Positions 5,601 through 46,336 of a stretch of 64,000 nt of DNA are shown in pieces. Position numbers and translations under genes: made by a program. Each line of letters opens with the position of its first letter. Within the stretch, counting starts at the first letter, position 1. Location: positions 1 to 64,000 of the forward strand of contig JAGOLX010000014.1 of assembly GCA_017993835.1 (NCBI GenBank), written 5' to 3'. The notes below the pieces were generated by a model. That model was not told the DNA's origin. It searched no databases and worked only from the letters and a program-made list of their open reading frames with translations. The DNA comes from Phycisphaerae bacterium. Lineage in GTDB: Bacteria > Planctomycetota > Phycisphaerae > Sedimentisphaerales > Anaerobacaceae.

Positions 5601-5919
5601 TGCCGAGTCCGCCGGGCGATTCCTTGATCAGGTCCGCAAGCGACGGACCCGCGACGTATTCCATGATGACGAACGGCCGACCCTGGTCGTTGTGCTTGAC
5701 GTCGAAGATGGTGACCAGGTGCGGACTCTTGAGGTTCATGCACTGGCTGATGCCGCGCAGCTCGATTTGCTCATAGCTCTGGACCGCCTTGAGCGCGACC
5801 TGACGGCCGCTGTCGCTGATGGCGTAGTAGACCTCGCCGAAACCGCCGCGTCCGGCCGCACGCTGGATGGTATATCCTTCGAGCGGCCGATCTCCATATT
5901 TGTATTGGTACGTGTCCAT
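2686..5919 (-). CDS. Membrane Ser/Thr protein kinase with C-terminal TM2 domain
   Basis: 1077 aa. The Hanks-type kinase domain covers about residues 14-265: glycine loop GRGGFGEV (23-30), Lys44, catalytic loop HRDLKPGN (131-138), DYG in place of DFG (150-152) and APE (176-178), so an active kinase is expected. A charged AEQFAKKAE-repeat coiled region (about 315-345) leads to many membrane segments, and around residues 765-820 there is a TM2 domain (GLCGLHRFYVGKIGTGILWL). Two further hydrophobic segments and a Pro/Ala-rich linker complete it. A short dispersed repeat is inserted in frame near residue 583 (ACPEPVEGA). The start has GAAGAA upstream. It lies 35 bp after the FHA-like gene and overlaps the next gene by ATGA. 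PknB-like function is secure; substrates (perhaps the FHA or sigma proteins) are inferred. Confidence 0.92.
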   Translation of the reverse strand: MDTYQYKYGDRPLEGYTIQRAAGRGGFGEVYYAISDSGRQVALKAVQSYEQIELRGISQCMNLKSPHLVTIFDVKHNDQGRPFVIMEYVAGPSLADLIKESPGGLGSQKAAFFLREIGKGLSFLHECGIVHRDLKPGNIFYENGYVKIGDYGLTKAISASHHVSHTITVGTVHYMAPEIGAGRYDRSIDIYALGVLLYEMLTGQVPFLGASPAEILMKHMTAAPDLTNIEDPFARVIRRALAKDPAERYQSVQEMVEDVFGTEHVRNSVSQFAPEELSVVAEHIAQKMQAARAQAHAQPKTPAQAEPESDFSKVVGKKAEQFAKKAEQFAKKAEVLSGQWVEKAKAIKERAHQVGRTQTMVADPFSPHQRAKLAMIACAATALGAGFLCGRGDEGKLGLAVVVFAMILVASSIVTRSLQRWWRAMDEEKKGLGKFGTSLLASFVAVVVGTTLAGGLDVIPSLSIHRGLPGPLRFPFGPFAGWPSLTLALALPMLLVDWREVSDPRRPKRVVLGWPVLVGVMGLISGGIFGLQPAVAACTLAGIVLVVQTRCPWGTAVANPAATTGSDNAVKGVEQVGRAPARACPEPVEGAYRETPVGVAPNGAQGAAWRAGSVGVATVAVPGYVHTLWLIGWLLTLGGGLLAVIMAGTTRMYGDDFGVTVAVGVDSLIASLFCFIMLFRRTFAGWYRYLVRPGLLLVCVLTIVTAAISLGTMRLHNEELAIATFFIVFPAILFFVILFLPARFFGTANVVKVQARPAQRGAVSPAKRVTALLLTVPGIFGLCGLHRFYVGKIGTGILWLFTGGLLGVGQLIDVILILVGQFKDSNQLPLVVWSDPREISAATAQSGSRPAADAPPIPAVGIAQPVEPAAEMPQPQPAVVQPPSWPSYSNTTTVYQPFDPLGGLLAAAGHILALAAILIGLIVGLHLPAVASAAWPQEEPMVQFQQMLGDSWPRVVEQAGTLLSVVLLFLAAVLIVIGRRKNGPAHVIRALAGLVGFFFGISFFCNEVMSRGETQNIVDLFRKEQAGPALERLFDVLSQEEAVVAGVIMLVSVLVMSWPPRRRTPVFAPMPPQGVVL
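4148..4178. repeat. Short dispersed repeat inserted in frame in the kinase gene
   Basis: The word CTTCGACAGGCTCAGGGC is a very common dispersed repeat core in bacterial genomes of this kind. Here it is read in the kinase frame as PEPVEG without breaking it, in a linker between membrane segments. Confidence 0.6.
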
Positions 5920-20988: not shown

Positions 20989-21042
20989 GTCGACACCTCC
21001 CATTCTAGCCACCCCTTCCGCAAGAGCACGCATCTCAGTCCT

Positions 21043-27546: not shown

Positions 27547-28374
27547 CTACAGGGGCAGGTCGCGCCGGCGCCAGATGACACCGCCGACAAGTACGATGCC
27601 GAGGAGAATAGCCGCCAGCTTGGCCATGTTCTCGACGGGCCATCGGAGCCAGATGTCCGAGTAGTACATGAGGTAGAAGAGCGTCGCCTTCCGCATGAAT
27701 TCCAAGCTGGGCCACCACGCCGCCACAATGGCGATGAAGTAGTTGATCGTCAGGAACCCCACGGCGACGCTGACAGCCAGGTAGAGTCGTCCGAACGACG
27801 CGGCGCACAGCAGGGCGAACGCACCGAACGTGCTGGCCAGCAGCCCGCCATTGATCGCCAGACGGAAGAACAGGCTCAGATCGATCGGCTCGCTGAAGGT
27901 ATAGAGGTGCACAGCGACAACCGTCCCCAGGAACATGACCATGACCAGAGTGAACATGCCGAGGAGCGTCAGGACCGCGGCACAGATGTAGACTTGCGTC
28001 TTGGTTATCGGACGGCTGAGAATCAGCTCCATGGTCCCCCGCTGCACCTCGCCCACGAGAAGACCCGTGGGCGTCCCCACCGCATAGACCATGTACAGGA
28101 ACATGATGAACGGGTGCTGGTATCCAACAGTCAGCAGGGCCGTCATGTTACCGGATTCCAGCATGTCGCCCCCGAGCGCCGTCCTCACGATGGAAGGCAG
28201 CAATCGGAGGAATCCCAGGAAGGTCCTGACGTTCGCGTTATCGTGTACGATGGCGGCAATCGCGATCTGCATCAGGAACATGACGGCCGCGATGCCGAAC
28301 CATGCGGGCAGCAAGCGAAGGAACCAGAACCACAGCAGTCTCAACGGAAACGACGGGCGCGAGGATTGAGTCAT
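27547..28374 (-). CDS. ABC-2-type transporter permease
   Basis: 275 aa from the ATG at 28374, which overlaps the ATPase stop as ATGA. Six hydrophobic segments are visible, including FGIAAVMFLMQIAIAAIV, ICAAVLTLLGMFTLVMVMFLG and NMAKLAAILLGIVLVGGVIW; EVQRGTMELILSRPITKTQVY between segments is the typical ABC-2 loop. It should form a dimeric membrane channel with the ATPase. Substrate unknown. Confidence 0.88.
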   Translation of the reverse strand: MTQSSRPSFPLRLLWFWFLRLLPAWFGIAAVMFLMQIAIAAIVHDNANVRTFLGFLRLLPSIVRTALGGDMLESGNMTALLTVGYQHPFIMFLYMVYAVGTPTGLLVGEVQRGTMELILSRPITKTQVYICAAVLTLLGMFTLVMVMFLGTVVAVHLYTFSEPIDLSLFFRLAINGGLLASTFGAFALLCAASFGRLYLAVSVAVGFLTINYFIAIVAAWWPSLEFMRKATLFYLMYYSDIWLRWPVENMAKLAAILLGIVLVGGVIWRRRDLPL

Positions 28375-29318
28375 GAACGCGGCCCTTTCAAATCCCCGCA
28401 GGCCGGGTTGGTGACGCTGGGCTGCTGCTGGTAGTACTGCATGAACGCATCCTGCAAGGAGATCTGCGGCGTGGTGATCCGATCCACAGGGAACCGACCG
28501 AGCCACTTAAGGATCGGATCGGCGGGACCCTGATAGGCGACGTGGAGAACGCCGGGTTGTCGCTCGACGATTCGCACGCCGGGCAATTGGGCCAGCGGCA
28601 CCTCCGGCAACAGGACCCCATCCGCGAACCACACCTTCAGACGCTGCTCGCCCTGCTGCATGATCTGGGAGATTGGCGCCGTCTCCACGAGACGGCCCTC
28701 GCGAAGTATCGCGGCCCGCCCGCAGATGGCCGAGACTTCGGCCAGATCGTGCGAGGAGAGCAGAACCGCAGCTCCGGCGTGTGCCGCTTCGCAAATCAGG
28801 TCCAGCACGACCTGACGCATGAGCGGATCCAGGCCGGCCGTCGGCTCATCGAGGATCAACACCTCCGGCTGATGCTGAAACGCCAGAAGCACCGCCACTT
28901 TCTGCCGATTGCCCTTGGAGAGGTCTCCGACCGGGCGATCCAGGTTCAGATCGAGACGCTCCGCCAGCGCCCTGCGCCGCGCCGCCGCGGCGCGATCCCC
29001 ACCCAGAGCGGCCAACATGCTCAGCGAGGTCCTCGCCTTGGGACGACCCCAGATGCGGAACTCGCCGGGCAGGTAGCCGATTCGCGCGTGCTGCGTGCCC
29101 CGACCCGGAACGATGCGCTGTCCCAGGACGCGAACCTCCCCGCCGCTCGGGCGCAACATGCCCATGAGACAGCGGATCGTCGTGGTCTTGCCCGCGCCGT
29201 TCGGCCCGAGGTACCCGAAAACCTCGCCGGCTTCGATCGCGAAGGTGATGTCTTCGATCCCCCGCGACCTGCCATACCATTTTGTCAATGACCTGATCTC
29301 AACCGACGCCATATCCAT
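28371..29318 (-). CDS. ABC transporter ATP-binding protein
   Basis: 315 aa. Walker A GPNGAGKTTTIR (about 37-48 in this numbering), signature LSKGNRQK in place of LSGGQ, Walker B VLILDEPTAGLDP, and H-loop SSHDL. A C-terminal extension of about 100 residues (ISQIMQQGEQRLKVW onwards) is common in CcmA/DrrA-type exporters. Start choice between the two ATG codons at 29318 and 29312 is uncertain; the ATG at 29372 is unlikely. It leads the permease gene and lies 88 bp downstream of the vWA/tubulin cluster's last gene, on the same strand, so read-through co-expression is possible. Confidence 0.9.
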   Translation of the reverse strand: MDMASVEIRSLTKWYGRSRGIEDITFAIEAGEVFGYLGPNGAGKTTTIRCLMGMLRPSGGEVRVLGQRIVPGRGTQHARIGYLPGEFRIWGRPKARTSLSMLAALGGDRAAAARRRALAERLDLNLDRPVGDLSKGNRQKVAVLLAFQHQPEVLILDEPTAGLDPLMRQVVLDLICEAAHAGAAVLLSSHDLAEVSAICGRAAILREGRLVETAPISQIMQQGEQRLKVWFADGVLLPEVPLAQLPGVRIVERQPGVLHVAYQGPADPILKWLGRFPVDRITTPQISLQDAFMQYYQQQPSVTNPACGDLKGPRS

Positions 29319-29406
29319 CCATGCTTGTGCACGAGGTGTCCCCAGCACGATAGTCGCGAACGACTGCGACATGTTGCAGGGAGTCTACATCCGCTCGTCG
29401 AAATGT

Positions 29407-32088
29407 TCAACTGTCGGCGTGATTAAGTGTGTTTGGGGTCTCGCGGCCGCGCGTGATGTCCGCCTGCGGCTGTCCCGGCATGCCCGGGAAACCCCGCCAC
29501 CCCTCGGACAGGCCCTGAACGACCCGCAGGACAACCACCGCATCGCTGCGGACGTCCCAATCGAGGGGCACGATCGGCGTCGAATCGGCTGCCTCCGCCA
29601 GCGGTTCCAACACCTCCCACAGCGGTCTGGCCACTGCGATGACGCTCGCGCTCATCTCGGGCTCCGCGCGGGAGGTCGGCCAGTGAGGACAGGCCGTGCG
29701 GGCGGTGAGACGCCCGAATCGGTCGAAATCCACCTGCACGAGGTTTAGCAGCTCCCCCAGCGTGTGCGATTCGATCCAGGCGTTGACCGCCTGCAACGCG
29801 AGCAGGGAGGTCAGGTCATAACACCTGGCTCGGGGGTTCTGAAGCTCCTTGGCGACGCACTCGGTCCACAGCCCGGGCTGCAGAGCCAGAGCAGCAAGCG
29901 ACTTGCCGGACCGCTTCTCCAGGGCCAGTCGAAAAGCCTTTGCCAACTGTTCCTCCCAGTCGGCCGCCAGGAAGTCGAACAGGGTCTCGCGATCCCGCGG
30001 CACGGGCATCGCCCGGGACCGGCTCAGTCCCGGATCACCCGCCAGCGACAGGCGATCGATCCAGTCGGCCATGGTGGCGATGCGATATCCCATCTCCGGC
30101 TCCTGGGTCGCACAGCCGATCCCGCCTGCCAGCGGCAGCGGCATCTTCGGGACCCGTTCGATGAGATGGGCACGTCCCGTGCGGGGCAACAGGACCCAGC
30201 CGATCCCCACCCCCGCCAGCAGCAATCCGCCGATGTGGGCGATCCACGGGAGAGCCGTCTGAGGCGGTGTTGGCGACGGGATTCCCAGACTCAGGACAAT
30301 CCACGCCAGCGCCAGGCACGACAGCCCCGCGGCGCAACACCGCCACGCCGGAGGACTCGTGTGGCCCGGCGCATCGGTCTCGCTCACCCGCTCAGGGTGT
30401 GTCTGCGAGGGACATCCGACGATGGCTGCGACGCCGAGCCCCGACATCACGGCCAGGACAATCGCCCAAACCAAGGTCGTCGGCGTCCACTCCTGGGGCC
30501 ACAACGGCCACGTCAGGCCCGCCAGACCCACGAGAATCATGAGCATCGAAGCGAGGAACACCTGTCCGCTCGGCCGTTTTCGGTATGGGACTGCCGGAAT
30601 CGACGCAGAGACTTCCTGCCCTTCCCGAATGCGGTGGCGAGAATGGCGAACCCACCCCGTCGGCAGCGTCATGAGGACCGACGCAGCCAGGGACAGCAGC
30701 CCTCCACCCAGCACGAACCACCGTTCGCGGGTCAACGATCCCGCCAAGATGGCAACCAGTCCGGCCGCGAGCAGAACCAGCCCCGCCCAGTACCCCCGCT
30801 TGGCCGCGGGCCGACCCACCGCCACGTAGGAGACCTCTTCTTGCTCGGGCGTGAAGCGGTCGGTCCATCGCGTCTGGGTCTGCGACAGCCAAGTCCTCAT
30901 CGGCTCGTACGTCGTGCCCTCCTGCTGACGAAGGGTCGCCATCGCCGACCGCCGGGTTCTCGTCCGCTCCCACAGTCGTTGGCGGGTCAGCAGCGCCTGC
31001 AATCTCGGTTCGAGACGTCGCAGGAAATGGCACAGACTCACCAAGGGCTCGCGCGAGCACACGTTCTTGACGGCCTTGCCGATTGCCTCGTCGATTTCCG
31101 CGTCGCACGGTGCAGCACCCCCGGCCTGATCTCGCCGCTCGCCGGGGAACAGATGGGCCTTCTCGCACAGATTGGCGATCCTGTCGACCAACGACTGCGC
31201 CTGCTCGTCGAGACTCTCGGGCCAGCCGGCCGGCATCGGCCGCCTGTACAGTTCCGCGAGATCCTCTGCGGCTACCCTCTCCGCGATCCTCTCGGCCACG
31301 ACGGAGAGGTCCGCCCGAATCGTCCGGCAGCCGAACGAACCACACACGTTCAGCATGTTCTCACCCAGCGAGGTGCGGGCTCGTTCGCCCTGTCGGAGCA
31401 AACCACGACAGGTCAGCCCGTGGTACAGGAGGAACTCGGCACCCAGCCGATGCAGTTGCTCGGGGCGGTCGAACCAGGTCTTGTCCGCGTCGCTGCCGTC
31501 GAGAAGGTAGATTCGTTGCGCCAGGGGCTCGTTCTGGAGTTCCGTCAGCAGGTGCGTCCAGACCTCGAACCAGGCGATGTCCCGGGAGGAATCCGTTCCC
31601 GCCGTCCTGGCGGTCAGTCCCAGGACCGTCACGTCGAGGGCAGGCTCGGCCTTTCGCAGCGCCCGCGTCAGGCGGACGGCCGAGGAGACAACGCCGGAAT
31701 CGGACAGATCGAGCAGTACGGTGCAGCCCATCCGCAGACGTCCCGGACCCACGGGGTCGGCGCCCGGACCGACCGACCGCAACCGGCGCACCAAAGACGA
31801 CAGGATCGTCAAGAGCTTCGCATCATCAGGACCGACGAACTCGGACCGATCGCGGAACACCGAAGGGTCTGGAATCTTGAAGTCATTGACCCACGGCCAG
31901 TCACATTGAAACAGGTCCTCGCAGCAAGAGTCCGCGAGCACCAAGCCAAACGGCCCGTCGATGCGCACGGTCAGGCGACGCGCCAGCCGGGAGAACTCCG
32001 CCAAGGTCCTCTCGGCGCAGGGCCCGACCCCGACGAACAAGGTCGGCCATGGCCCCATCACTTTCTTCTGACCGTTCTTCGCACCCAC
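29407..32088 (-). CDS. Membrane protein with degenerate tubulin-like N terminus
   Basis: 893 aa starting with GTG, with AGGGGG five bases upstream. The N terminus (PTLFVGVGPCAERTLAEF, 15-32) resembles the opening of the next gene's product (PTLIVGLGGTGG) but the Gly-rich loop is broken, and the second Gly loop is replaced by LLDLSDSGVV (125-134). About six membrane segments lie at 420-640, followed by a soluble domain (MADWIDRLSLAGDP, FDFLAADWEEQL). It probably cannot bind GTP but could pair with the intact tubulin-like protein at the membrane. The AT-rich element C sits between it and the tubulin-like gene. Homology to that gene is by eye only. Confidence 0.72.
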   Translation of the reverse strand: MGAKNGQKKVMGPWPTLFVGVGPCAERTLAEFSRLARRLTVRIDGPFGLVLADSCCEDLFQCDWPWVNDFKIPDPSVFRDRSEFVGPDDAKLLTILSSLVRRLRSVGPGADPVGPGRLRMGCTVLLDLSDSGVVSSAVRLTRALRKAEPALDVTVLGLTARTAGTDSSRDIAWFEVWTHLLTELQNEPLAQRIYLLDGSDADKTWFDRPEQLHRLGAEFLLYHGLTCRGLLRQGERARTSLGENMLNVCGSFGCRTIRADLSVVAERIAERVAAEDLAELYRRPMPAGWPESLDEQAQSLVDRIANLCEKAHLFPGERRDQAGGAAPCDAEIDEAIGKAVKNVCSREPLVSLCHFLRRLEPRLQALLTRQRLWERTRTRRSAMATLRQQEGTTYEPMRTWLSQTQTRWTDRFTPEQEEVSYVAVGRPAAKRGYWAGLVLLAAGLVAILAGSLTRERWFVLGGGLLSLAASVLMTLPTGWVRHSRHRIREGQEVSASIPAVPYRKRPSGQVFLASMLMILVGLAGLTWPLWPQEWTPTTLVWAIVLAVMSGLGVAAIVGCPSQTHPERVSETDAPGHTSPPAWRCCAAGLSCLALAWIVLSLGIPSPTPPQTALPWIAHIGGLLLAGVGIGWVLLPRTGRAHLIERVPKMPLPLAGGIGCATQEPEMGYRIATMADWIDRLSLAGDPGLSRSRAMPVPRDRETLFDFLAADWEEQLAKAFRLALEKRSGKSLAALALQPGLWTECVAKELQNPRARCYDLTSLLALQAVNAWIESHTLGELLNLVQVDFDRFGRLTARTACPHWPTSRAEPEMSASVIAVARPLWEVLEPLAEAADSTPIVPLDWDVRSDAVVVLRVVQGLSEGWRGFPGMPGQPQADITRGRETPNTLNHADS

Positions 32089-32100
32089 GAAACCCCCTGC

Positions 32101-32208
32101 TATTTATGATTTACGATTTTCGATTGACGATTCGCGGCGCCCGTGCAGCGTACCAACCGCAGTAAACCACAAATCGTAAATGGTAGATCATAAATCATCA
32201 ATTCGAGA
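32101..32208. repeat. AT-rich bipartite GATT/AATC element C
   Basis: GATT-type words (32103-32134), a GC-rich spacer, then AATC/ATCA-type words (32168-32205). It starts over the stop codon of the tubulin-like gene and ends before the GTG of the next gene. Confidence 0.6.
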
Positions 32209-35062
32209 TCCCTTCTCGGAATACCTGGATGTCGCTGCGGCAGGTCTCGACCACGTCGGCCATCGCGTGCCGTTCCTTCTCGGGCAGGCCCACGCTGCAC
32301 TCATCCACGTTCTGGATCAGCGTATCCAGCATCGCCAGACACCGGGCCAGCCCCTGCCGAACCGCGTCGGAATCCGCCAGCGGCATGCTGTGCAGCATCA
32401 GATCGATCCGCGAGCTGGTCCCGCCGTGCAGTTCCGCCATCCGGATGCCGACCTCCGAGTCCGTCACCGAACGCATCTGCTGGCGCAGCCGTCCGCTGAC
32501 CGACTCGATCAGTTTTCGCAGGGAGCCCGTCCTGGCGGCGTTGGCTTCGTAGGTTCGCCGTTCCGTATTGTCCTTCTGCGGACCGGCCTGGCTGTGCCAC
32601 TCCGCCAGAGCATGCTGGTAGGAGACGTACCAGTTCTTGTCCAGCCACAGATCGGAGAACTCGAATCCCATCCGCCTGACGTATTCGTCGGTGGCCGCTG
32701 CGTACTTGGCGTACCGGCTGATCGCTTCCAGACAGAAGCCATACCGAAGGCGCAGGATCTGGAGCCATTCCCCCGTGACATGGCGGAAGTTCTCGTCCAC
32801 GTTCGCTTCCCGCAGGCTCATTTCGCAGTTGTGCGTCAGCAGTTGCGGGACGCACGAGCTCGGGACCTGTTGAGTCACCGTGACATCGAGCGGCGCCGCG
32901 TACTTGCGGGACTTCGACAGGTCGATCTTCGGCTCCGCCAGCCGCCAGATCTCGCAGATGCTCCGGTAGTACGGATGCTCGTTCGTCGCCTGGTGCTCGC
33001 CCAGGCCGTTGCGGAACACCTCCCACCCGTGATTCTCGATGTCGCGCAGGAAGCGTTTCATCTCGCCGGCCAACTGGCCCAGATTCTGCGACAGGCGGTC
33101 CTCGACCGCGCGGACATCCGCCAGTTCCGGCCGAACCTCCCGAATGGATAGGACCGTTCCGAACAGAACCGGCTTGATCAGGCTCTGACGCAGGTCCCGC
33201 GCCGAAACATTGTCCAACGCGTTCGATGCGTCGAGCGACGCACACAAAGGCGTGGTGAAGAAATCCGCCAGTCGCGGCGTGCCGTTGGAACGCCCGCCGT
33301 TGCTGCGCTCTCCACTGGTCCGACGCTGCCAAGCCAGCTCGATGAGCGCCTCCATGGCCTGTTTGCGAATCGAGAACACGCGCAGCGTCGCCTTGATGGC
33401 TCCGACGGAGTTCTCATGGAGCAGCGCCTCGGCGCAGGAGGCCCATCGGGCATCGATCACTTCGCCCACGAGCGGAGCTATGTCGGAACTCGTCCACGAC
33501 AGGGGAGGAACCCGCTGTTCCAGACTCGCCAATCCCTGGCGGATGCCGGCGAGGATCTCCGTGACGACCGCATTGACCGTGGGTTTCGCGACGGCCTGCC
33601 TGTGATCCAGCAGGGTTTCGACGCCCTCCGTCCAGGCGTCCAGACACGCCCCGATCTGGCTGATGGGCTTGAGTTGCTCGGCGTTGAAGAAGTCGCGTCC
33701 GAGCATCTCGTCGGCCGCCTCCAACAGGCCGGCGATCGGCTTGTTCGGGTCCTGGACTCGCTCGCCTTCCTTGCGGGCCGCCGGCAGAACCGAGATCTCG
33801 ATATATCGACGGACGCTCTGCAGGACGTTGGACACCACCTCCTGCGACGTCCCCCTGCCCGGCGGGTCCCACGCAAACGGCACCGATGGGCGGATGAATT
33901 CATTCGTGCCGGGAGAGGCACCCAGAGCGGTCGCGATCCGTTTCTGCACCTCCTGGCGGTAGTCGGCGCGGGCCTGCTGACGATCCTGGCCCAGGGTTTC
34001 CAGTTCACTGAGGATTCGCGACTCGATGTTCGCCCGCCTGTGTCCGGGCGTCCCGCACCACAGGCCGTAACTCGAGAAGCACTGGCGATGGTTGTTCACC
34101 GGGTCCCGCTGAGGCAGGATCTCCGCCAGCTTGTTGTTCGCATCGGATCGGACCTGCTGGCCCAGGGGTTCGAAGGCCATCGCGCGGATCACCCGGGCGA
34201 TCTGACGGACCAGGTGCTTGCGGTCGCCGCTGCCCATATCGACCTGGCCGTTGAGCAGGTACAGGAAGTTGAACGGCGCGGTGTCCCGTCGGAAGCAGTC
34301 CTCGCCCGCCCGGTTGCTGCGGTATCGGACCGGGATGTCCGGGCGGCGCTCATCGCTGAGGAACTCGATCTGGTCCAGCGTGGCGCTGGCGGTGGCCTCC
34401 AGCTTGGGCCGGAGCATCGGATCGACTCGGAACGCATCGGGCAGGAGCAGATGACCGATGACCTCGGCGGGCTTGGGGAACGATTCCCGCGACCACCAGC
34501 GGAGGTTGTAGGCCATGTCGATGAGCATTCCGGCGCCGGTCCCGCCGCAAACACTGCTAGCGATGTGTACCGCCGGCGCACCGTCGGCGGCCAGGACGAA
34601 CTGGTCCGGCTGTTCCTCCACGAGCTGCTGCGTGCTCGTCCGAAGACTGCTGAATCGCGTCGCGACCGCCTCGTGGATGACCGTCTCGCGCAGCTCGAAG
34701 AAGACCAGGCGTCCGAGCCGGGGTATGCCCTGGCATCCGTAGTCCGCGAACGTTGCGTCCTCGCGGAACCCGCGCATCCAGTCCAGGTGCGGATGGAATT
34801 CGGGGAAGCTGACGTTGTCGCGGACGACCTCGCCGACATCGACATAATGGAACAGATTGATGAAGTCGGACAGGATCCCCTCGGGGGGCCCGCCGTCGTC
34901 GGAAGCGTCCGTATCCAGTTTCAGGAAGCGGATGAACGACGGGACGTGCCCGAACAGCTCGCGGATGTAGTGCTCCGCCCACTGGCAGACCAGGCCGCCG
35001 GTGCCGCCCAGCCCGACGATGAGTGTCGGTCGCACAACAATGGGACTATTGCTCAGTCGCAT
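32198..35062 (-). CDS. Tubulin/FtsZ-superfamily protein (Tubulin_2 type)
   Basis: 954 aa. The first 250 residues have the order of a tubulin-like GTPase: PTLIVGLGGTGGLVCQWAEHY (12-32, first Gly loop), KLDTDASD, and the tubulin signature ASSVCGGTGAGMLIDMAYNL (168-187). The C-terminal 650 residues are helical and unrecognised, far longer than FtsZ, which has about 380 residues. It should bind GTP and might polymerise or work as a switch near the membrane. The ATG has GAGGA seven bases before it. It is 68 bp after the vWA gene. Tubulin-superfamily membership is strong from the two glycine motifs; the cellular role is not known. Confidence 0.85.
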   Translation of the reverse strand: MRLSNSPIVVRPTLIVGLGGTGGLVCQWAEHYIRELFGHVPSFIRFLKLDTDASDDGGPPEGILSDFINLFHYVDVGEVVRDNVSFPEFHPHLDWMRGFREDATFADYGCQGIPRLGRLVFFELRETVIHEAVATRFSSLRTSTQQLVEEQPDQFVLAADGAPAVHIASSVCGGTGAGMLIDMAYNLRWWSRESFPKPAEVIGHLLLPDAFRVDPMLRPKLEATASATLDQIEFLSDERRPDIPVRYRSNRAGEDCFRRDTAPFNFLYLLNGQVDMGSGDRKHLVRQIARVIRAMAFEPLGQQVRSDANNKLAEILPQRDPVNNHRQCFSSYGLWCGTPGHRRANIESRILSELETLGQDRQQARADYRQEVQKRIATALGASPGTNEFIRPSVPFAWDPPGRGTSQEVVSNVLQSVRRYIEISVLPAARKEGERVQDPNKPIAGLLEAADEMLGRDFFNAEQLKPISQIGACLDAWTEGVETLLDHRQAVAKPTVNAVVTEILAGIRQGLASLEQRVPPLSWTSSDIAPLVGEVIDARWASCAEALLHENSVGAIKATLRVFSIRKQAMEALIELAWQRRTSGERSNGGRSNGTPRLADFFTTPLCASLDASNALDNVSARDLRQSLIKPVLFGTVLSIREVRPELADVRAVEDRLSQNLGQLAGEMKRFLRDIENHGWEVFRNGLGEHQATNEHPYYRSICEIWRLAEPKIDLSKSRKYAAPLDVTVTQQVPSSCVPQLLTHNCEMSLREANVDENFRHVTGEWLQILRLRYGFCLEAISRYAKYAAATDEYVRRMGFEFSDLWLDKNWYVSYQHALAEWHSQAGPQKDNTERRTYEANAARTGSLRKLIESVSGRLRQQMRSVTDSEVGIRMAELHGGTSSRIDLMLHSMPLADSDAVRQGLARCLAMLDTLIQNVDECSVGLPEKERHAMADVVETCRSDIQVFREGISN

Positions 35063-35130
35063 TCTATGTTCCTCTACTGTCTCTCAACATACTCCAACTC
35101 CAGACCCGAAGGGCATGCCCTGCGCGTCTG

Positions 35131-38100
35131 TCATGTCTCTCCCTTCGCCATTCTCCGGATTCGAATCGCCACGCGCATCGTGCGATTGACGCCGTCCACT
35201 CGATACGGAAGATCCAGATACACGGTCTTGATCTGCCCCTCGGGCGGCAACGGGCCCGAGCCATCCTGGCAGGACCACACGCGACCACTCCGGGCCCCCG
35301 GTCCCGTCCATACGCACATCAGTCCCGTGCGGGCAGACCGTGCGTCGCCCCGGACTCTCGGGATCACGGCCATCCAGGCCCGACGACGCGGACACAGCGC
35401 CCGTCGGAGGAAGACGCGGATCGGACCCGCGATCAGCGCCGTGGCACTGCCATTCCAGCGACTCCGCAGATACCGCGTATACATCCGCACCTCTCTCCCG
35501 AAGGAGGTTTCCTGCAGGTCGACCAGAACCGGGTTGTCGAGCCGGGTCGGCTCCACCACGGCGATGTTCTCCTCCAATCGCATGTCCAGGGCCAGCCGGC
35601 TCGGACTGGGGACGGACAGCCTGAGGACCGCTGTCAGGACAGCGACGACCAGGAACGCCACCACCGGCCACCAGCACAGCGGAACCACCCAGGGCGTGTT
35701 CAACTGAACGCTGTAGAGGTCGCTCCACTCGGTTACCGCGCGGTCGGCCGGCACGTCCGCCGTTGCCGACTTCTGGGCTCGGTAAACGACCGACGCCACC
35801 AGGGAGTATTGCTCGCTCGCAGGACGCGTGGGCCAGCCGAAAAGACGCAGGCCGGCTCGTCTCGGCATTACGCGGACGGGTTTGCCGGCCGCCGGATTGT
35901 CGATTTTGAACGACAGAATAGCCGCTCCGCCTGCCGCCTGGTCCTGCAAGCTCTCCAACATGCGGGCATCCATCTGGCTGCTGGCGGTCTCGCCAGTTCG
36001 ATGACGCCATAAGAATACGCTCGATTCCGACGGGGCCCACTGGCCTTCCAATTCGGGCACTGCGCGGAATTGCGGGCGGACCCAAAGCTCGGAGGAACCG
36101 TCGAAGGCCAGTTCGGCGCCCTCCAGGGCGATCGGACCGGCTTTGCCCCCTGGGCTGAACGTCAGGCGGCCGAGGACCGGCTCAATCACGCGGATGTCCG
36201 GGCAATCCCATCGCAGCAAGTCAAGGCCCTGCGAAGAGAGCTTGAATTGCACTGCCCCATTGCGGAGTCCCTGTGTCGCGGGCATAACCTTCGGGCCTTT
36301 GACCAGGATCTGTCGGGCCTCGGGCGTCTGCGACAGAATCGAGGAGGTTCCGTCCATCCAGGTTTCGCTCTGCCCCGGCAGTTGGAACTGGAACGCCACC
36401 GCCTGGGGCGGGCTGGCCTCGGCCGACTCCTGGTGCAGCGTCACCTGGTACTCGAAGGGCCATTGGCGGACCCGCGAGGTCAGCCACGCGGGCGGCGCCG
36501 TCGTCGGCTTGATCTCGTGCGGCTGGATCGATGCGACAATCGGCGTCTGGAAGAACACCGTCCGACGGCCGGACTGTGGATCCTGACCGGTCACTTCCAG
36601 GATGTACTCGCCATTGGCGGCGATCTGGATCTCCTTCAGGAACGAGCCCTCGCTCGTCAGTTCGCCTGCATCCGAGAACTCGGTGGCCCAGTCGGCATTC
36701 GAAGATGGACGCCGCAACAGACGAATCGTGGTGCGCCACGACCGCGACTGCCCCGTAGCAGCCCCGTCATTGCTGCGAACCTCCACCCGCAGACGGGCGG
36801 AGAACCGCGTCGACAGAGCAGACACGCCCCCTTCGCCGGCGATCCACCGACGGGAATCAAACACAGGCTCATCGCCCGTGGCGGTGAGCTTGCGAATCGT
36901 GACGGCCAATCGAGGCGACTTCGTCAACAGGTGCGCGGAGACGCGACGAGGCGACGACTGGCTCGCACCCTGCACCGCCGGCGTCTGGGCGCTCAGTTCG
37001 ACGGTGGCCCGGCCCGGCGCATCGGGCGTGTACGTCGCGTGCCCGATCAGCGTACACCGGCGGTCCGGCCCTTCCGCAGGCGTCACGGACGTCCACTCGA
37101 TCGTCTCCGACACGTCCCGCACGTCGCCCGTCTTGGCCGTGACCGTCACGGTGCAGGATTTCTTGAACTCATCGACGGCGGCGTTATGCCGCGGGTCCGC
37201 GGCGGTATAGCCGGTGAACACCGCCTGCAGCGGGATCTCGACCGGCTCCCAGGCGTAGGCCGTCATGTCCATCAGGGCGCCCTCGCCCGCCTTCAGGTCC
37301 TCCAGACTCACCCGCCGGTCCTCCGTGCGGAACTGCCCGCCCACGAGCTTGATCTGCACGGCGCGATCCGCGCCGGCAGGCTGCATCGTGACGTGGACGA
37401 ACACCGGAACGACCTGCCCCCGACTCAGGCCGGGGAGGACCCGCTCGAGATCGGCCTTGCCGGTTGCGGCCGTCACCGGCAGATCCACGAACATCGGCTC
37501 GTTCGAATCCGCCTGTGGCATCTCGAAGCGAACTGCGGAGATGTTCTGGTCCGCCTGCCACTCGGCGTGGAACTGAACCGGTTCCCCACAGAACAGGGCC
37601 TCCGAGATCGACCCCTGTCGCACCGTCTGTCCCGGCTGAGTCATAAACCATTTGAACAGACCCCGTGCCGCGGGATCGACGACGGCGTAGGTCTTCAGAG
37701 TCTCCTGGAGGTTCTCCATAGCCGGACCGAGATCGATCTCGCACTTGTCCGCCGGCGGGATCGGAACCGTGGACTCCACGAAGTACGTCGCGGTGACGGT
37801 CCGTCCTTCGTACCCGCCTGCCTGCGGCGGTTCAAGGACGCGACTGGCGGGACTCGATACCTGGGTCGTGCCGGTCCGCATGTCCACTGTCCGGACCTTC
37901 GTCTGTGGCAAGGCCTGTGGGAACAGGCTCACGGTCGCCTCGCGGAACCGCTCGAAGACCGGGAATGCGGAGATCACCACAGGCTGCTTGTGCAATTCGC
38001 CTACCCACAATGCGTCGCGAGTGTCGGTGAACCTGCTCTCGATCCGCATCGGCGCCGGCGAGTAGACCAGATCGAATCGCGGAAGAACAATGCGGCGGAT

Positions 38101-39846
38101 TCCCGCGTCGGTTCGGACGTCCAGCTCCGCCCATCCGACAAGCCGCTCTTCCTGCTCGATGAGCCGAATGGGACCCGCCAGCAGATTGCCCTGCTCGTCC
38201 TTGCGCATCGGCCAATCGGTCTGAGACAACGGCTCCAGGTGCAACGCACCCGAAAGCGGCTCGACCTTGAACTGGCCTCTGCCTGCGATCCGGAAATCGA
38301 CCTCTTGCCCGCCGTGCAGGTCGATGTTGACCGTGGCCCCCGCGGTCGGCGGCACTTCCGCGAGCGCCTCGCCCGAAGCGGCACTGACCACACTGACGCC
38401 CACGCATTCTGAGTGTACGTACACATCGCCTGTCTGCAACAAGATTGGCACATTCACATCGCCGATCGCGTGACGCAGCTCGCAGTTGAGCCGGTACAAT
38501 CCCGGCTTTCCTATCGTGAAAGGCCCCGTTTCGTACCGCCTCGCCGGCTCGATCCAGAGGCCCCGGCTGGCCGCGACGGAATTCGTGCCATCGGAAGAGT
38601 TCGCCTGGACCCAGATCGACAGGTCCGCCGCACTTGCTGCGGACGCGGCTGTTCGCGAGTCCGGCCCTTTCTTGTGTCGCTCCAGCAGATACGCTCTGGT
38701 CTGCACCTGTTCGTGAAGCCACCAGGGCAACTCGGGCTTGAGCGCCAACTGCATCAGGAAATCGGGGATCCGATAGATCCGGACCGCAGGCCGGGACTTG
38801 CCGTCCCCGGCGCCCAGCGTCCATTTCCCCTGCCAGAAGCGATCGACGAGGTCGCCCGCGTCGGGGCGACGCACAACCGTCGTCTGATACCAGGGGGACG
38901 CGATCACGCTGGACCGGATTCCGGAGGCGGCCTCCATGCTGCTGTCCATCGTCAGCGAGCGAGGTCCCTGGTCCGGTCCGCCCATCGGCTCCACGGTCGC
39001 CGACGCCACCGACTCTCCTACCGTGACGATGGCCCAGTCGTACCGACTGACGAGCAGATCGTCGCGGACCTGCATGCCCAGGTCGAAGACGTCCATGAGA
39101 ATATCGGCGAAACCGAAGTCCGGCGCGAGTCGGTAGGCTTTGCCTCCCGTTGTCGAAGCGACCGATTTCATCAGGTCCTCCGCGGCGATCTCATCGGCCG
39201 ACAGCCGGGATCGCTTGTCGCTGGATCGGAACGAGGCCCCGTCGATCAGAACAGGGTACACCTCGATCCGCACCGCAGCCACGCGCTTCGCCATCTCCAG
39301 GAGCGGACCGCGCCCACGATCCAATTCCCGCGCGCTGTCGCGAGGGGCCCCGTTCGTCAGCACGATCACCTTGCCCGCGCCAGGCCCATACTGCCGACGA
39401 GCGGCCTCGATGCGACCCGCGGCCCAGCTCACGCTCTCGGCAATGTCCGTTCGGTAGGCCCCCAGAAACTCCACGGGACGCACCATGTTGCGGCAGGCCG
39501 ATTCCGTCAGGAAGGTCTGCCCCCACGGCAGCAGAGGACCGGTCTCGTCGCTGGGCAGCGAATAGCGGACCTTGTCGGAGAAATGCCCAACGCCCACGTA
39601 GAGATCGGACCGCAGGAACGGCAACAACTGCAGGAAGATCAACTGCCCGTCGTCCCGCAGCGTCTGGCGTCTGCCGCCCGCGTCCGCCGGCGCGTCGCTG
39701 CTCTCCATGTTCCCGGAGACATCGACCGCAATCACCACGTAACAGGGCTCGCGCCGATCGGGGGCCGTCGCGGTATCCGTGGCCTCAGCACCCTGTGCCG
39801 AGAGCAACGCTCCGATCAACACCACATTCAACAGCATCGTGCACAT
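35131..39846 (-). CDS. Giant secreted or membrane-anchored vWA-domain protein
   Basis: 1571 aa. Signal peptide (LLNVVLIGALLSAQGAEA), then a von Willebrand A domain from about 34 to 225. The MIDAS motif is DVSGN (42-46), with Asn in place of the last Ser, so metal binding may be altered; TNGAP appears later. A long stretch of beta-sandwich modules (about 330-1370) follows. A single membrane segment (PVVAFLVVAVLTAVLRL, about 1394-1410) leaves a 160-residue basic cytosolic tail. It lies one base after the upstream gene stop, indicating coupling. In this position it could be the external sensor or adhesion part of a membrane-spanning system with the tubulin-like GTPase inside. Confidence 0.85.
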   Translation of the reverse strand: MCTMLLNVVLIGALLSAQGAEATDTATAPDRREPCYVVIAVDVSGNMESSDAPADAGGRRQTLRDDGQLIFLQLLPFLRSDLYVGVGHFSDKVRYSLPSDETGPLLPWGQTFLTESACRNMVRPVEFLGAYRTDIAESVSWAAGRIEAARRQYGPGAGKVIVLTNGAPRDSARELDRGRGPLLEMAKRVAAVRIEVYPVLIDGASFRSSDKRSRLSADEIAAEDLMKSVASTTGGKAYRLAPDFGFADILMDVFDLGMQVRDDLLVSRYDWAIVTVGESVASATVEPMGGPDQGPRSLTMDSSMEAASGIRSSVIASPWYQTTVVRRPDAGDLVDRFWQGKWTLGAGDGKSRPAVRIYRIPDFLMQLALKPELPWWLHEQVQTRAYLLERHKKGPDSRTAASAASAADLSIWVQANSSDGTNSVAASRGLWIEPARRYETGPFTIGKPGLYRLNCELRHAIGDVNVPILLQTGDVYVHSECVGVSVVSAASGEALAEVPPTAGATVNIDLHGGQEVDFRIAGRGQFKVEPLSGALHLEPLSQTDWPMRKDEQGNLLAGPIRLIEQEERLVGWAELDVRTDAGIRRIVLPRFDLVYSPAPMRIESRFTDTRDALWVGELHKQPVVISAFPVFERFREATVSLFPQALPQTKVRTVDMRTGTTQVSSPASRVLEPPQAGGYEGRTVTATYFVESTVPIPPADKCEIDLGPAMENLQETLKTYAVVDPAARGLFKWFMTQPGQTVRQGSISEALFCGEPVQFHAEWQADQNISAVRFEMPQADSNEPMFVDLPVTAATGKADLERVLPGLSRGQVVPVFVHVTMQPAGADRAVQIKLVGGQFRTEDRRVSLEDLKAGEGALMDMTAYAWEPVEIPLQAVFTGYTAADPRHNAAVDEFKKSCTVTVTAKTGDVRDVSETIEWTSVTPAEGPDRRCTLIGHATYTPDAPGRATVELSAQTPAVQGASQSSPRRVSAHLLTKSPRLAVTIRKLTATGDEPVFDSRRWIAGEGGVSALSTRFSARLRVEVRSNDGAATGQSRSWRTTIRLLRRPSSNADWATEFSDAGELTSEGSFLKEIQIAANGEYILEVTGQDPQSGRRTVFFQTPIVASIQPHEIKPTTAPPAWLTSRVRQWPFEYQVTLHQESAEASPPQAVAFQFQLPGQSETWMDGTSSILSQTPEARQILVKGPKVMPATQGLRNGAVQFKLSSQGLDLLRWDCPDIRVIEPVLGRLTFSPGGKAGPIALEGAELAFDGSSELWVRPQFRAVPELEGQWAPSESSVFLWRHRTGETASSQMDARMLESLQDQAAGGAAILSFKIDNPAAGKPVRVMPRRAGLRLFGWPTRPASEQYSLVASVVYRAQKSATADVPADRAVTEWSDLYSVQLNTPWVVPLCWWPVVAFLVVAVLTAVLRLSVPSPSRLALDMRLEENIAVVEPTRLDNPVLVDLQETSFGREVRMYTRYLRSRWNGSATALIAGPIRVFLRRALCPRRRAWMAVIPRVRGDARSARTGLMCVWTGPGARSGRVWSCQDGSGPLPPEGQIKTVYLDLPYRVDGVNRTMRVAIRIRRMAKGET

Positions 39847-39847
39847 A

Positions 39848-42238
39848 TCATCCTGCGGGGATTTCCGCCCTCAATCGCGCGACCTTCTGAACAATATCCG
39901 ATTCTCGAATCCGACAGATCTCTTCTTGTGACACGCCGTCCGCCCAAGCCTCCAGACCCGCCAGCACGCGTCTCTGCACGGGGGGGGCATCCTCTTCGTG
40001 ACATGCGGCCAGATAGAATCCGGTCGCGACCCGCCGGAGCTGATCGCGCGTGTCGAGCCCGAGACGCAACAGATCGCTGTACGCGGTCTTCGCCTCCTGC
40101 CACAACGCCGGACGGGCGTCGAGCGCCTGCCGGGCTTCGACCAGGCGCCGGGCCTTCTCGCACGATTCCAGAAACACACGCACCGGATTGCGGGGATCCG
40201 CACGTCCGACCAGACCGGTTCCTGCGTTCGGCCAGTGATCGAGACATCGCTCGGCCAGTTGCCTGACCTGGGCAATGGCGTCGTGGTCGTCTGTCACCAG
40301 AACAGGCGACAGCGTACTCGCCACACACCGCCACAATTCCATGCACCGATTCGCCTGCCCGTCGATCTGCGGAAAAGCGCGTTCCAGCAACTGGGCGGCT
40401 CGAAGCAGGAGATCCTGACTCCCGGCGTTCCGCGAATCGGACAGCCCGAACAGCGGCGCCATCGCCAACCACAGGTCCGGCTTGAGGACCAGCGCCCGGG
40501 TCAGGTCCTCGTCCACCGAGTCCCAGGGAACCTCTCCCGCCCGCACGACGGCCAGGACCTTGTGCCAATGGTGCTGTCCCTGGTGGGCGTCGAGCCGGTC
40601 CCGCAGAGCGGGCCAATTCTCGACACAACACTCGGGATCGCTGCGATGGCATTGCGCGAGGGTCTCGTACACCGACTGGGCAACCGGCGTCGCCCAGTCG
40701 CCCGGCCAGTTCCGCCGAAGGAATCGCAGGGGCTCGCGAATCGCTCGGCGCATCTCGATGCGTCTGAGCCTGCGGACGTGACGATCCAGACGACCGGTCA
40801 GTTCATCGAGGAGTGCCGCCACTTCGTTGCCCGCCTGGGGCTCCAGGCCGGACCGGACCCGGCGGATTCTGCCCGCGAGGTCCTCGTACTGGAGCTGGGC
40901 CTGACAGAGATCGACAATCCCGCCGAACTGCTCCACTGCGGACGTCAATCCGACGCACGCCCTCTGGAGGTGGAGCTGCTCATTCTGGGACTGAAGATAG
41001 TCCACTCGTTCGAGTTGCGCGTCGATGCGGGCAATCAGGCCGGCAAGTCGTCCCCGCCGGTTCAGCGACGACAGGATTCTCCGCTGCGCGTGCAGTCGGG
41101 ACCGCACCAACTCATACCGGCTCAGAGCCAGACGGCTCTCGATGGTCGCCAGTTCCTCCCGCACCGACTGTTCCGCGCGGGCCAACGGACTCTCCAGCCT
41201 CGTCAGGGACGACGGAATGTCATCACTCAGGAGCAGGCTGGCCGCCTCGGCACAGTGGTCATAGGCCGCGTGCGAGGACCGGTCCGGATGGTTGCTGGGA
41301 CCGTCTCCGCATCGGGACTCCCACAGAGTCAACCGAGATGCCGCCGCAGACAGAGAACCCGTCGTCGAATCCGACTCGTTGCCGGCGAATCCCTTCGCAC
41401 GCGAAGCCAGACACGAGGTCAGGGTGTTCAGTCGCCGGAAGGTCGGATCGCGCAGGATCGCAAACCCCCCATCGGGCTGCTCTTCGCAGCACAGATCTTC
41501 CGGCGTCGCGTCGGTCTCTCCCGCGGCGTCCCGTCCGAGCCAGAAAGCCCTCCCCTCTTCGGGAAGGCGACAGAAGAAGTCCGCCAATTCCCCGTCGGCC
41601 GCCCGCGCGAGGGAGCTGGATGCGAGCGACACGTTGATGAGATTCAGGAGGTTGAAACAGGCCGCCGGCAGCCCTTCGACCGGCAGGTCCCCCAAAGCGG
41701 GATTCCCCCCCGGACAGCCGTCCTGAGTCTGTGCGGACAGCTCCGGAATGGCCGCCTGCAACAGGTCCGAGACGCCCTCGAGGCGACCGAGCCGGATGCG
41801 CAGGACACCCCGATTGTTGTAGGCCAGCAGACGGAGGTGGGTCTCCCGGCACGGCGTCTGAAGGAACGCGTCGTAGAGCTGGGCCGCAGTTTCCAGGCGA
41901 TCCATCAGGTCGTTGAGCCACGCGGCCGTCCAGAGGAACCTCGCGGCGACATGGGGACTCGTCCAGCGCCAGCGACACAGACGCTCGACCTGCTCGCAGA
42001 ACGCGCGGATGTCGACAGCAGGCGATGGGGAGGCGTACATCGAGCGCAGGCGGCAGAGCAGCTCGTCGCTCAGGGCCTCGCTGTACGGCGAGTCGAGAGA
42101 CTGTTCGAGCGTTCTGTCCGCGGTCGCGCCCGGCGTCCTCGACGGACTGTGGCAATCCACACGGCCGTCGAACACGAGCCTCGCCAGGGAGGCCGGCGTC
42201 ATCTCCACCTCGCGTCCGTCTATACGAACAGTTAGCAT
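39848..42238 (-). CDS. Helical-repeat (TPR-like) protein of the vWA/tubulin operon
   Basis: 796 aa from the ATG at 42238 (MLTVRIDGREVEMTP); longer in-frame starts lie in non-coding-looking DNA. The first 40 residues form a small beta module, the rest is almost wholly helical with TPR-like pieces (LLAYNNRGVLRIRLGRLEGV, LLRAAQLLERAFPQIDG) and a central coiled-coil (DAQLERVDYLQSQNEQLHLQ). No catalytic motif is seen. As first gene of the operon it may be the cytosolic scaffold. A C8 tract (minus strand) at about 39970 is in frame here. Confidence 0.78.
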   Translation of the reverse strand: MLTVRIDGREVEMTPASLARLVFDGRVDCHSPSRTPGATADRTLEQSLDSPYSEALSDELLCRLRSMYASPSPAVDIRAFCEQVERLCRWRWTSPHVAARFLWTAAWLNDLMDRLETAAQLYDAFLQTPCRETHLRLLAYNNRGVLRIRLGRLEGVSDLLQAAIPELSAQTQDGCPGGNPALGDLPVEGLPAACFNLLNLINVSLASSSLARAADGELADFFCRLPEEGRAFWLGRDAAGETDATPEDLCCEEQPDGGFAILRDPTFRRLNTLTSCLASRAKGFAGNESDSTTGSLSAAASRLTLWESRCGDGPSNHPDRSSHAAYDHCAEAASLLLSDDIPSSLTRLESPLARAEQSVREELATIESRLALSRYELVRSRLHAQRRILSSLNRRGRLAGLIARIDAQLERVDYLQSQNEQLHLQRACVGLTSAVEQFGGIVDLCQAQLQYEDLAGRIRRVRSGLEPQAGNEVAALLDELTGRLDRHVRRLRRIEMRRAIREPLRFLRRNWPGDWATPVAQSVYETLAQCHRSDPECCVENWPALRDRLDAHQGQHHWHKVLAVVRAGEVPWDSVDEDLTRALVLKPDLWLAMAPLFGLSDSRNAGSQDLLLRAAQLLERAFPQIDGQANRCMELWRCVASTLSPVLVTDDHDAIAQVRQLAERCLDHWPNAGTGLVGRADPRNPVRVFLESCEKARRLVEARQALDARPALWQEAKTAYSDLLRLGLDTRDQLRRVATGFYLAACHEEDAPPVQRRVLAGLEAWADGVSQEEICRIRESDIVQKVARLRAEIPAG

Positions 42239-42695
42239 AATTCGCGGTCCACCAGTGCTTCGAGCCCTCATCCGAGGACTACGCCAATGCGCTGACCCCA
42301 TACTGCACGCGATGCCCGCATGATGCCATAGGCGTCCGTGTCGGCGTCTCGTCAACGTCAAGGACCAGACGCAGAACGCAGACCCTCGCGCGCAATCCAT
42401 GTACATCCATCTCCGGGATTATCGACCGTTGAGCCGATGGAGTAAGGCGGCTCCGCCATGGACCGATATGTGTCCCGAGCAAGACGTTGTGAGCCGGTGG
42501 AGCGTCAGGCAAGACCACGGCGCACCGTCCGATAAGGCGATAGGATTCCCTCCCTTCGGAGCGACCCGATCACGCCGCGGCGCCACATTCCATACGCGAT
42601 GCCTACAGCCCCGTCGTGAAACCGCCGAAGAAGTTGACAGCGGCCTTTCCAGAGCGGCGTGATCCGCAGGAACCGAGTGACCGCAATCGGAACAG
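42239..42695. other. Divergent intergenic region
   Basis: 457 bp between the leftward vWA/tubulin operon and the rightward pilus region. It must hold promoters for both directions; a TTGACA at about 42634 has no matching -10 at 17 bases. No gene is supported. Confidence 0.4.
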
Positions 42696-44398: not shown

Positions 44399-44570
44399 GC
44401 GCGCCGCCCAGGCATGGGGCGGCCGTCCCCCCCCCCGCCCAAATTGCCTGTCGTTGTCCGGTTCCATCCAGGTCTGCTAAAGCGAAAGCTCGATACAACC
44501 GATAGGGACAACGAGTAGAGATCTGTTGGATCATGAAGTGCTATCGATAATACGAGGCTCCGGTCATGCC

Positions 44571-45335
44571 ATGAAGACGACATCGGGAAGTTTTTCCGTT
44601 CTGGAAAGCAACGGTCGCCATCAGTTCGGTGAATTGCTCGTCAACAAGGGCATGATCACCCAGGATGAACTGCTTGGAGCTCTCGACGAGCAGCGGGAGA
44701 AAGGCGGACGCATCGGCGAAATCCTGATTCGCCGGCGGATCCTCGACGATCTGACCCTCAGCACGGTCCTGGCCGAGCACCTGTGCATGGAGTACATCGG
44801 TCTCGACGATCACTCGAAGATCGACCTGAAGGTCGCTCGGGCGCTGCCGGAGAGCATCGCCAAGCGATTCTGCCTGCTGACCCTGCGGGAGGAAGACGGC
44901 AAACTGGTCACGGCCATGGCCGACCCGCTCGACGTGGTCGCCATCGACACGGTCATGCTGAAGATGCAGCGTCCGATCAAGCCGGTGATCAGCGCACCGG
45001 GCGAAATCCGCCGGGCCATCGAGCTCATCTACCACGGCTCGGACATCGAGGAACGCCAGCTCCGAGACCTGGTCGCAACCGAGAATGACGCGGACGAGGA
45101 GATCGCGGCGAACATCCCCGCGGTAGAGGGGTTCGACGGAGCCACCGGCGGCGAAGAAGCGGCGAACCAGGCCCCGGTCATCCGGTTCGTCGACCTGTTG
45201 CTGCGCCAGGCAGTCAAGAATCGGGCCAGCGATATCCACATCGAACCGCAGGCCGAGACGACCATTGTGCGCATTCGCGTGGACGGCGTGCTGCGAGAGG
45301 TCGTGCCCCCCCCAAGAGGATGCACGCAGCGGTGA
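44571..45335 (+). CDS. GspE/PilB ATPase, N-terminal part (before frameshift)
   Basis: About 254 aa before a premature stop. It has the T2SSE/PilB N-terminal domain (FGELLVNKGMITQDELLGAL, then LAEHLCMEYIGLDDHSKIDL and ALPESIAKRFCLLTL) and the beginning of the ATPase (APVIRFVDLLLRQAVKNRAS, then DIHIEPQAETTIVRIRVDG). The reading frame is lost in a run of eight C at 45306-45313; one more C would fuse it exactly to the next ORF. The ATG at 44571 is preferred over the in-frame TTG at 44526. It is the first gene of the pilus/secretion locus and would power assembly from the inner membrane. Confidence 0.82.
   Translation: MKTTSGSFSVLESNGRHQFGELLVNKGMITQDELLGALDEQREKGGRIGEILIRRRILDDLTLSTVLAEHLCMEYIGLDDHSKIDLKVARALPESIAKRFCLLTLREEDGKLVTAMADPLDVVAIDTVMLKMQRPIKPVISAPGEIRRAIELIYHGSDIEERQLRDLVATENDADEEIAANIPAVEGFDGATGGEEAANQAPVIRFVDLLLRQAVKNRASDIHIEPQAETTIVRIRVDGVLREVVPPPRGCTQR
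45306..45313 (+). other. Poly-C frameshift site in GspE/PilB
   Basis: Eight C where nine would keep frame (GTG then CCC CCC CCC AAG AGG ATG). It may be a natural phase-variable slip, a fixed mutation or an assembly error. Confidence 0.7.
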
Positions 45336-46336
45336 TCGCCCGCATCAAGATCCTGGCTCAGATGAACATCGCAGAACGGCGCCTCCCCCAGGACGGCCGG
45401 CTGCGAATCCGGACCTCCGGACGGGAGATCGACGTGCGAGTCTCGACCATCCCCACCATCTACGGGGAGAAGGTCGTGATGCGAATCCTCGACACCGCGG
45501 CAGTCAGCCACGATTTGAATCGGCTCGGCATCGAGCCCGACGCAATGATCGAGCTGAAGTCCATGCTCTCGCGTCCCCACGGCATCATCATCGTCACGGG
45601 CCCCACCGGCAGCGGCAAGAGCACGACGCTCTACGCGGCGCTCAACTATCTGAAGAATCCCGCGGTCAATATCACCACGGTCGAGGACCCCGTCGAGTAC
45701 CGCCTGGCGGGCATCAATCAGATCCAGGTGAAGCCGGAGATCGGGCTCGATTTCGCCCTGAGCCTCCGCGCCATCCTCCGACAGGACCCAAACATCATCC
45801 TGATCGGGGAGATCCGCGACAAGGAGACCGTCGAGATCGCCATCAAGGCCTCTCTGACGGGACACTTGGTCCTGAGCACCTTCCACACGAACGACGCGCC
45901 CAGCGCGATCAGCCGGCTCGCCTACATGGGGATCGAGCGGTATCTGCTGGCGTCCACGCTGAACCTGATCGTGGCACAGCGGCTCGTGCGGAAGATCTGC
46001 GAGAACTGCAAGGAGCCGGCTCGGCCCTCGGACGAGATTCTCGGACGCCTGAAGCTGGACCCCGTCAAGAACGCCGACGCGAGGTTCCACCGGGGCAAGG
46101 GCTGTCCCATCTGCGGCAACACCGGCTATCACGGCCGGCTCCCCATCTTCGAGTTCCTGGTCGTCGATGAGGACATCGGCGAGCGGATCATCGCCGGACA
46201 GAGCGAGGCCCAGATCAAGGAGGCGGTGCGAGCCAAAGGATATGGCAACCTCCTCGACAGCGGAGTCCAGGCCGTCCTGCGGGGTCTGACGACCCCCGAA
46301 GAGGTCATCCGAGTGGCGTCCATGGGAGAAGCCTGA
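45320..46336 (+). CDS. GspE/PilB ATPase, C-terminal part (after frameshift)
   Basis: 338 aa from an internal ATG. It contains the ATPase core: Walker A GPTGSGKSTTLY, Asp box TTVEDPVEYR, Walker B ILIGEIRDKETVEIA, His box LVLSTFHTND, and the tetracysteine zinc motif CENC ... CPICGNTGYHGR. Fused to the preceding ORF it would be a normal PilB/GspE of about 590 residues. AAGAGG lies immediately before the ATG, too close for good initiation, which supports it being part of a single gene. GspF follows after five bases. Confidence 0.85.
   Translation: MHAAVIARIKILAQMNIAERRLPQDGRLRIRTSGREIDVRVSTIPTIYGEKVVMRILDTAAVSHDLNRLGIEPDAMIELKSMLSRPHGIIIVTGPTGSGKSTTLYAALNYLKNPAVNITTVEDPVEYRLAGINQIQVKPEIGLDFALSLRAILRQDPNIILIGEIRDKETVEIAIKASLTGHLVLSTFHTNDAPSAISRLAYMGIERYLLASTLNLIVAQRLVRKICENCKEPARPSDEILGRLKLDPVKNADARFHRGKGCPICGNTGYHGRLPIFEFLVVDEDIGERIIAGQSEAQIKEAVRAKGYGNLLDSGVQAVLRGLTTPEEVIRVASMGEA

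Follow-up and report, generated by a model that had tools for sequence, protein, structure and literature searches.

A four-gene planctomycete locus combining a candidate FtsZl1 GTPase, an exported vWA protein and a probable membrane-embedded relative of FtsZl1

Four adjacent genes, here called A, B, C and D, in a 64,000-nucleotide stretch of planctomycete DNA (the window) encode what we propose, with a probability of about 0.5 for the model as a whole, to be one inner-membrane complex, with C as its GTP-binding member, D as a GTP-dead membrane partner and B as the component linked to the cell surface. We view the system as a lineage-specific variant of the known FtsZl1-vWA type, in which the probable loop-less, membrane-embedded protein D is the new part. 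D is a concrete candidate for the anchor by which FtsZl1 proteins would get to the membrane, a question that, like that of their assembly, dates from 2010. The complex would also couple a tubulin-like protein on one side of a single membrane to an exported vWA protein on the other, in bacteria without FtsZ.

In the proposed mechanism, C would be a cytosolic GTP-binding FtsZl1 protein and D an old relative of FtsZl1 in which both glycine loops were lost and six membrane spans acquired. D, GTP-dead and held in the membrane, would anchor C or cap or template its assemblies. B would place its vWA domain and a large further region outside the membrane that it crosses once, and its basic inner tail would make contact with the scaffold A or with C or D. 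If C assembles on D, this might organize B at the surface; in the other direction, something that happens at B might alter how C assembles. Among the things we infer are the contacts between the four proteins, which way signals would run, any coupling to an outside signal, and the purpose of the system, for which surface assembly, adhesion or surface motility appears more likely than cell division.

Organization and selection of the locus

Genes A-B-C-D lie next to one another on the minus strand, from position 42238 down to 29407, with gaps of 1, 68 and 109 bp, in agreement with the coordinates, strand and spacings given in the first-pass annotation of this DNA. Gene A (39848..42238; 796 aa) is an open frame with orthologues at 41-70% identity, and codes for a candidate cytosolic helical/TPR-like scaffold. 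Its frame begins at 42406; the ATG at 42238 is the supported start, the position at which the match of most relatives begins in the alignment. Gene B (35131..39846; 1571 aa), gene C (32198..35062; 954 aa) and gene D (29407..32088; 893 aa) follow on the same strand.

Comparison with an orthologous locus gave dN/dS values of 0.24 for A, 0.18 for B, 0.07 for C and 0.20 for D: purifying selection acts on all four, which are functional genes. The order A-B-C-D is held in every relative with a long enough contig, spanning two genera. It is complete at L022/L015, L024, L026, L027 and L031, and matches up to the contig ends at L014/L030, L016/L023, L025, L028 and L029, so the survey of relatives bore out joint conservation of the four genes. 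The dN/dS range (0.07-0.24) and this conserved order together indicate that the frames did not arise by chance. The host genome (99% complete, 115 contigs) groups with Phycisphaerae metagenome genomes, and its nearest named relatives include Phycisphaerales UBA2218.

A Pfam scan of the neighbouring genes identified an ABC ATPase, an ABC-2 permease, a HEAT-like protein and an HTH-like protein. The ABC transporter ATPase (28371..29372, minus strand; ABC_tran, 9.1e-25) lies directly downstream of D; the ABC-2 type permease (27547..28506, minus strand) matched ABC2_membrane_2 at 2.9e-4, under the family cut-off. These accessory genes adjoin the operon at L014-L016 and L080, all within the genus. 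In the sister genus they do not adjoin the operon, and on that ground we rejected the transporter as a part of the system.

Elsewhere in the window, a Type II/IV secretion ATPase (T2SSE; 44526-46336, plus strand) is split, next to a run of C, into overlapping frames of 269 and 338 aa; its counterpart at L015 is unbroken at that point, and the split is either a sequencing error or a recent inactivation. The window also encodes a 1324-aa protein (17059-21033, minus strand) that combines a C10 peptidase, a Spi-type inhibitor, HYDIN-like Ig domains and a right-handed beta helix, and a 1077-aa protein kinase (2686-5919, minus strand) whose residues 767-815 form a TM2 domain.

Proteins A, B and C

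A counterpart of the operon is present in G161 and G345, two genomes of another planctomycete family; it is made up of an A-like protein (626 aa), a vWA protein with one span (1762 aa), a Tubulin_2 protein (909 aa) and a protein with two spans (698-740 aa).

B had been described as an exported vWA protein with one membrane span and a basic cytosolic tail, and this description holds. A signal peptide is predicted at residues 1-19, hydropathy places the sole span at residues 1390-1408 (35623..35679), and the tail beyond it (161 aa) contains 28 K/R and 14 D/E; the long region between vWA domain and span is predicted to be exported. The vWA domain occupies about residues 34-250 (39097..39747), as judged from the orthologue alignment and a profile match between residues 1-261 of B and 1-239 of the G161 vWA protein (p 2.6e-6). 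Pfam recognizes it weakly (VWA_2, best E 0.014 among eight orthologues) and clearly in diverged equivalents of B (E 8.5e-14 and 7.4e-11). The MIDAS motif reads DVSGN in the host and DVSGS or DVSGG in relatives; the metal site is thus incompletely conserved.

A has no predicted export signal and no clear span. Its earlier description as a TPR-like scaffold fared less well: Pfam gave no significant match in the window's A and no TPR match in its orthologues, and what favours the description is a TPR_17 match (E 0.0022) in the distant equivalent of A from the G161-type operon, to which A itself has a weak profile match (p 0.003).

C matched Pfam Tubulin_2 (PF13809) over residues 14-333 with an E-value of 1.6e-35 and 123.4 bits, against a cut-off of 27, covering profile positions 1-331 of 356; it is the one Tubulin_2 gene in the host genome. 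Its tubulin domain also matched that of the G161-type equivalent (profile p 1.4e-22). Both glycine loops are present, T1 as GLGGTG at residues 17-22 (34997..35014) and T4 as CGGTGAG at residues 172-178 (34529..34549), and each is invariant in every orthologue that covers it, down to 46% identity. The HMM search and the orthologue alignment confirmed the earlier reading of C as a tubulin/FtsZ-type protein with both loops. By the profile match C belongs to the Tubulin_2/FtsZl1 family, and its loops make it a candidate GTP-binding protein that might also polymerize. A structure model of C, built from 12 sequences, has pLDDT below 50 up to residue 358, so that residues 1-260 are of low confidence; it is helical from residue 346 onward. 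Fold searches with it returned helical bundles only, in the tail, and no sequence relative of C was found in the PDB. Because the model is of low confidence in the GTPase region, we base the fold assignment of C on its Tubulin_2 profile.

Makarova and Koonin in 2010 (PMC2875224) described FtsZl1 as a family often accompanied by vWA genes and hypothesized that it remodels membranes; both the association and the proposed role were correctly given in the first-pass annotation. The long C-terminal extension of C, regarded there as unusual, is standard FtsZl1 architecture (PMC2875224). As for remodelling itself, the published hypothesis was drawn from gene context and was disputed within the same paper by a reviewer who preferred transport or signalling. 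Applied to this locus, it would describe a membrane-remodelling or vesicle machine in which C polymerizes on the membrane via D and bends it, with B as the outer partner. Gene context and the published hypothesis speak for such a machine, as does D, which supplies a predicted membrane anchor. Filaments and curvature are conjecture here, however, and no counterparts of the FtsZ filament contacts were identified in the family (PMC2875224). We consider remodelling unlikely to be the role of the locus, while granting it more credit than any other alternative to the surface-linked complex.

Protein D, a probable degenerate FtsZl1 relative

D had been annotated as an 893-aa membrane protein with six spans, and we recovered six hydrophobic segments between residues 435 and 634 (30187..30786) from hydropathy and from the helices of an AlphaFold2 model. 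They are predicted to form three short hairpins and, from the distribution of charge, to leave both ends of the protein in the cytosol. A triplication of the hairpin had been suggested by eye; hhalign found no internal repeat, and we dropped it. The model (mean pLDDT 64.9; below 50 at residues 197-254) opens with an alpha/beta domain at the N-terminus and continues through an extended helical part and the six spans to a C-terminal domain.

The N-terminal domain can be read in two ways. In one, it does not descend from tubulins, and its likeness to them is that of a generic Rossmann-like fold. Foldseek with the D model gave no significant match, listing small GTPases and vWA-type folds at similarly weak E-values. 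Pfam searches with ten D orthologues, at E-values up to 10, returned no tubulin family among the matches listed, and a direct hhalign comparison of D with C of the same family was not significant. Nor did the two D groups, our own and the two-span proteins of the G161/G345 type, match each other significantly when compared directly by profile.

Against this reading stand the ranking of structural matches, broader profile comparisons and the order of motifs. Within the limits of a model with pLDDT 64.9, VIA-align placed CetZ (3zid) at the top for residues 13-254 (Z 10.9, 3.6 A over 170 residues), with tubulins (gamma, alpha and beta) and FtsZ next; for most small GTPases Z was below 8. FtsZl1 proteins of other families, including a tandem copy discussed below, matched D with p 0.003 in local and 0.0011 in global comparison, exceeding 60 of 60 column shuffles; the global score lay at z 8.8 over shuffles. 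When a combined profile of both D groups was compared with a combined FtsZl1 profile, p was 5e-5 and none of 150 shuffles scored as high. One global combined-profile test was left uncounted because its shuffles were unstable (2 of 60 as high). Searched against a pool of neighbouring genes, the D profile found FtsZl1 proteins as its top matches after D's own members. In a joint alignment, D reads GVGPCA at the T1 position and LSDSGVV at the T4 position, both glycine loops being lost, and retains, in order, two motifs further along: YLLDG...R..L, and SFG with a helix. A generic, non-tubulin domain thus strikes us as rather improbable.

A further planctomycete genome, G110, has an intact Tubulin_2 gene followed by a tandem second copy without the T4 loop. 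The arrangement resembles C-D; the second copy differs from D in having no predicted span and in still being recognized by Pfam (E 2.4e-12), and it would form a bridge between intact FtsZl1 proteins and D. On the strength of the VIA-align ranking, the broader profiles and this intermediate, we take the first ~280 residues of D (about residues 13-280; 31249..32052) to be probably a degenerate FtsZl1 domain, as predicted from sequence comparison and the structure model. The earlier pairing of C with a degenerate copy accordingly finds a counterpart in D, which resembles such a copy in fold ranking (Z 10.9), profile tests and joint alignment.

In planctomycete G328, spans are predicted within the Tubulin_2 protein (L057:5128-9420), around residues 177 and 1341. 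This is perhaps another route of anchoring.

Distribution and comparison with known systems

D is present in 12 of the 161 genomes of the order, confined to two genera and found in 6 of 9 genomes of the window's genus. Among 392 genomes spread over the phylum, it occurred in one, the host genome itself. Genome G004 contains a second, strongly diverged set in the same order, with identities of 31% for B, 47% (front) and 33% (back) for C, and 30% for D. This diverged B-C-D copy lies at L012 (G004:C857) and L079 (G004:C872), and its D also lacks both glycine loops.

The host genome contains no match to canonical FtsZ/tubulin (PF00091) at E ≤ 0.001, and the system might accordingly be thought to substitute for FtsZ in the division of its hosts. 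PF00091 is indeed unmatched both in this 99% complete genome and in 12 of 12 genomes with D. However, 133 of the 161 genomes of the order are without PF00091 and only 12 have the system; three genomes of the same genus lack both; G004 has two diverged sets; and elsewhere FtsZl1 coexists with FtsZ (PMC2875224). Since most FtsZ-less relatives do without the system, a role in cell division is unlikely, and replacement of FtsZ very much so.

PF00091 matches do occur in 28 of the 161 genomes of the order, several as tandem pairs, in contrast to a 2020 report that planctomycetes lack ftsZ (PMC6952346). One such pair, made up of divergent FtsZ/tubulin (PF00091) genes in tandem, comes from a different genus of the host's family (L084:1926-4789). 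In the second gene the T4 loop is altered, reading GGAAGSGS instead of GGGTGSGS, and this gene seems to be fused to a C-terminal Fis/NtrC-like region, whose DNA-binding character was judged by eye.

Least credible of all is a vWA-based defence or biological-conflict system: vWA proteins occur in such systems and presence is patchy (12 of 161 genomes of the order), but PADLOC gave no meaningful match, no effector-like domain was recognized, and export, not a cytosolic location, is predicted for the vWA domain.

We return to the surface-linked complex and to its likely purpose. Pilus assembly proteins are binding partners of Sll0445, a Tubulin_2 protein of Synechocystis whose mutant is impaired in phototaxis (PMC9880817). 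In Methanoculleus, an operon of vWA proteins and a tubulin-like protein termed CetZ is upregulated on agitation (PMC12008871). By analogy with the Sll0445 phenotype and the Methanoculleus operon, we lean towards surface assembly or adhesion, noting that the Sll0445 phenotype may not transfer, given its different operon context. Sll0445-Sll0447 resembles the present locus in placing a Tubulin_2 protein in a gene cluster with a membrane or surface link, and differs in having FtsA-like and DivIC-like partners; a vWA gene or D is not reported there (PMC9880817).

The closest comparison is with the FtsZl1-vWA systems of PMC2875224. Their FtsZl1 proteins share with C the family domain, both glycine loops and the long C-terminal region, and, as here, an exported vWA gene adjoins the FtsZl1 gene. 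A P-loop GTPase, kinase or OmpA-type gene is frequent in them, although not universal; none is among our four genes. Conversely, scaffold A and the six-span D set the present locus apart from the systems named in that paper, in which some families are left unnamed. Kinase-fused FtsZl1 loci of other planctomycetes contain no recognizable A or D.

Lastly, C strictly retains its glycine loops and D uniformly lacks them, which suggests a division of labour. Tentatively, and at less than even odds, D could be a pseudo-tubulin: an ancient FtsZl1 duplicate that has no GTP loops, is held in the membrane through three hairpins and assembles together with active FtsZl1 into a two-subunit tubulin system, one subunit binding GTP and the other GTP-dead and membrane-embedded, tied to an exported receptor. 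Alpha/beta tubulin and BtubA/B offer a parallel for such a pair, as paired tubulin homologues of unequal GTPase activity, and together with CetZ they would share the fold predicted for D's N-terminal domain. Unlike all of these, D is without glycine loops and is predicted to be embedded in the membrane, and the C-D heterodimer is a hypothesis; as a membrane-fixed tubulin homologue, D would to our knowledge have no counterpart elsewhere.
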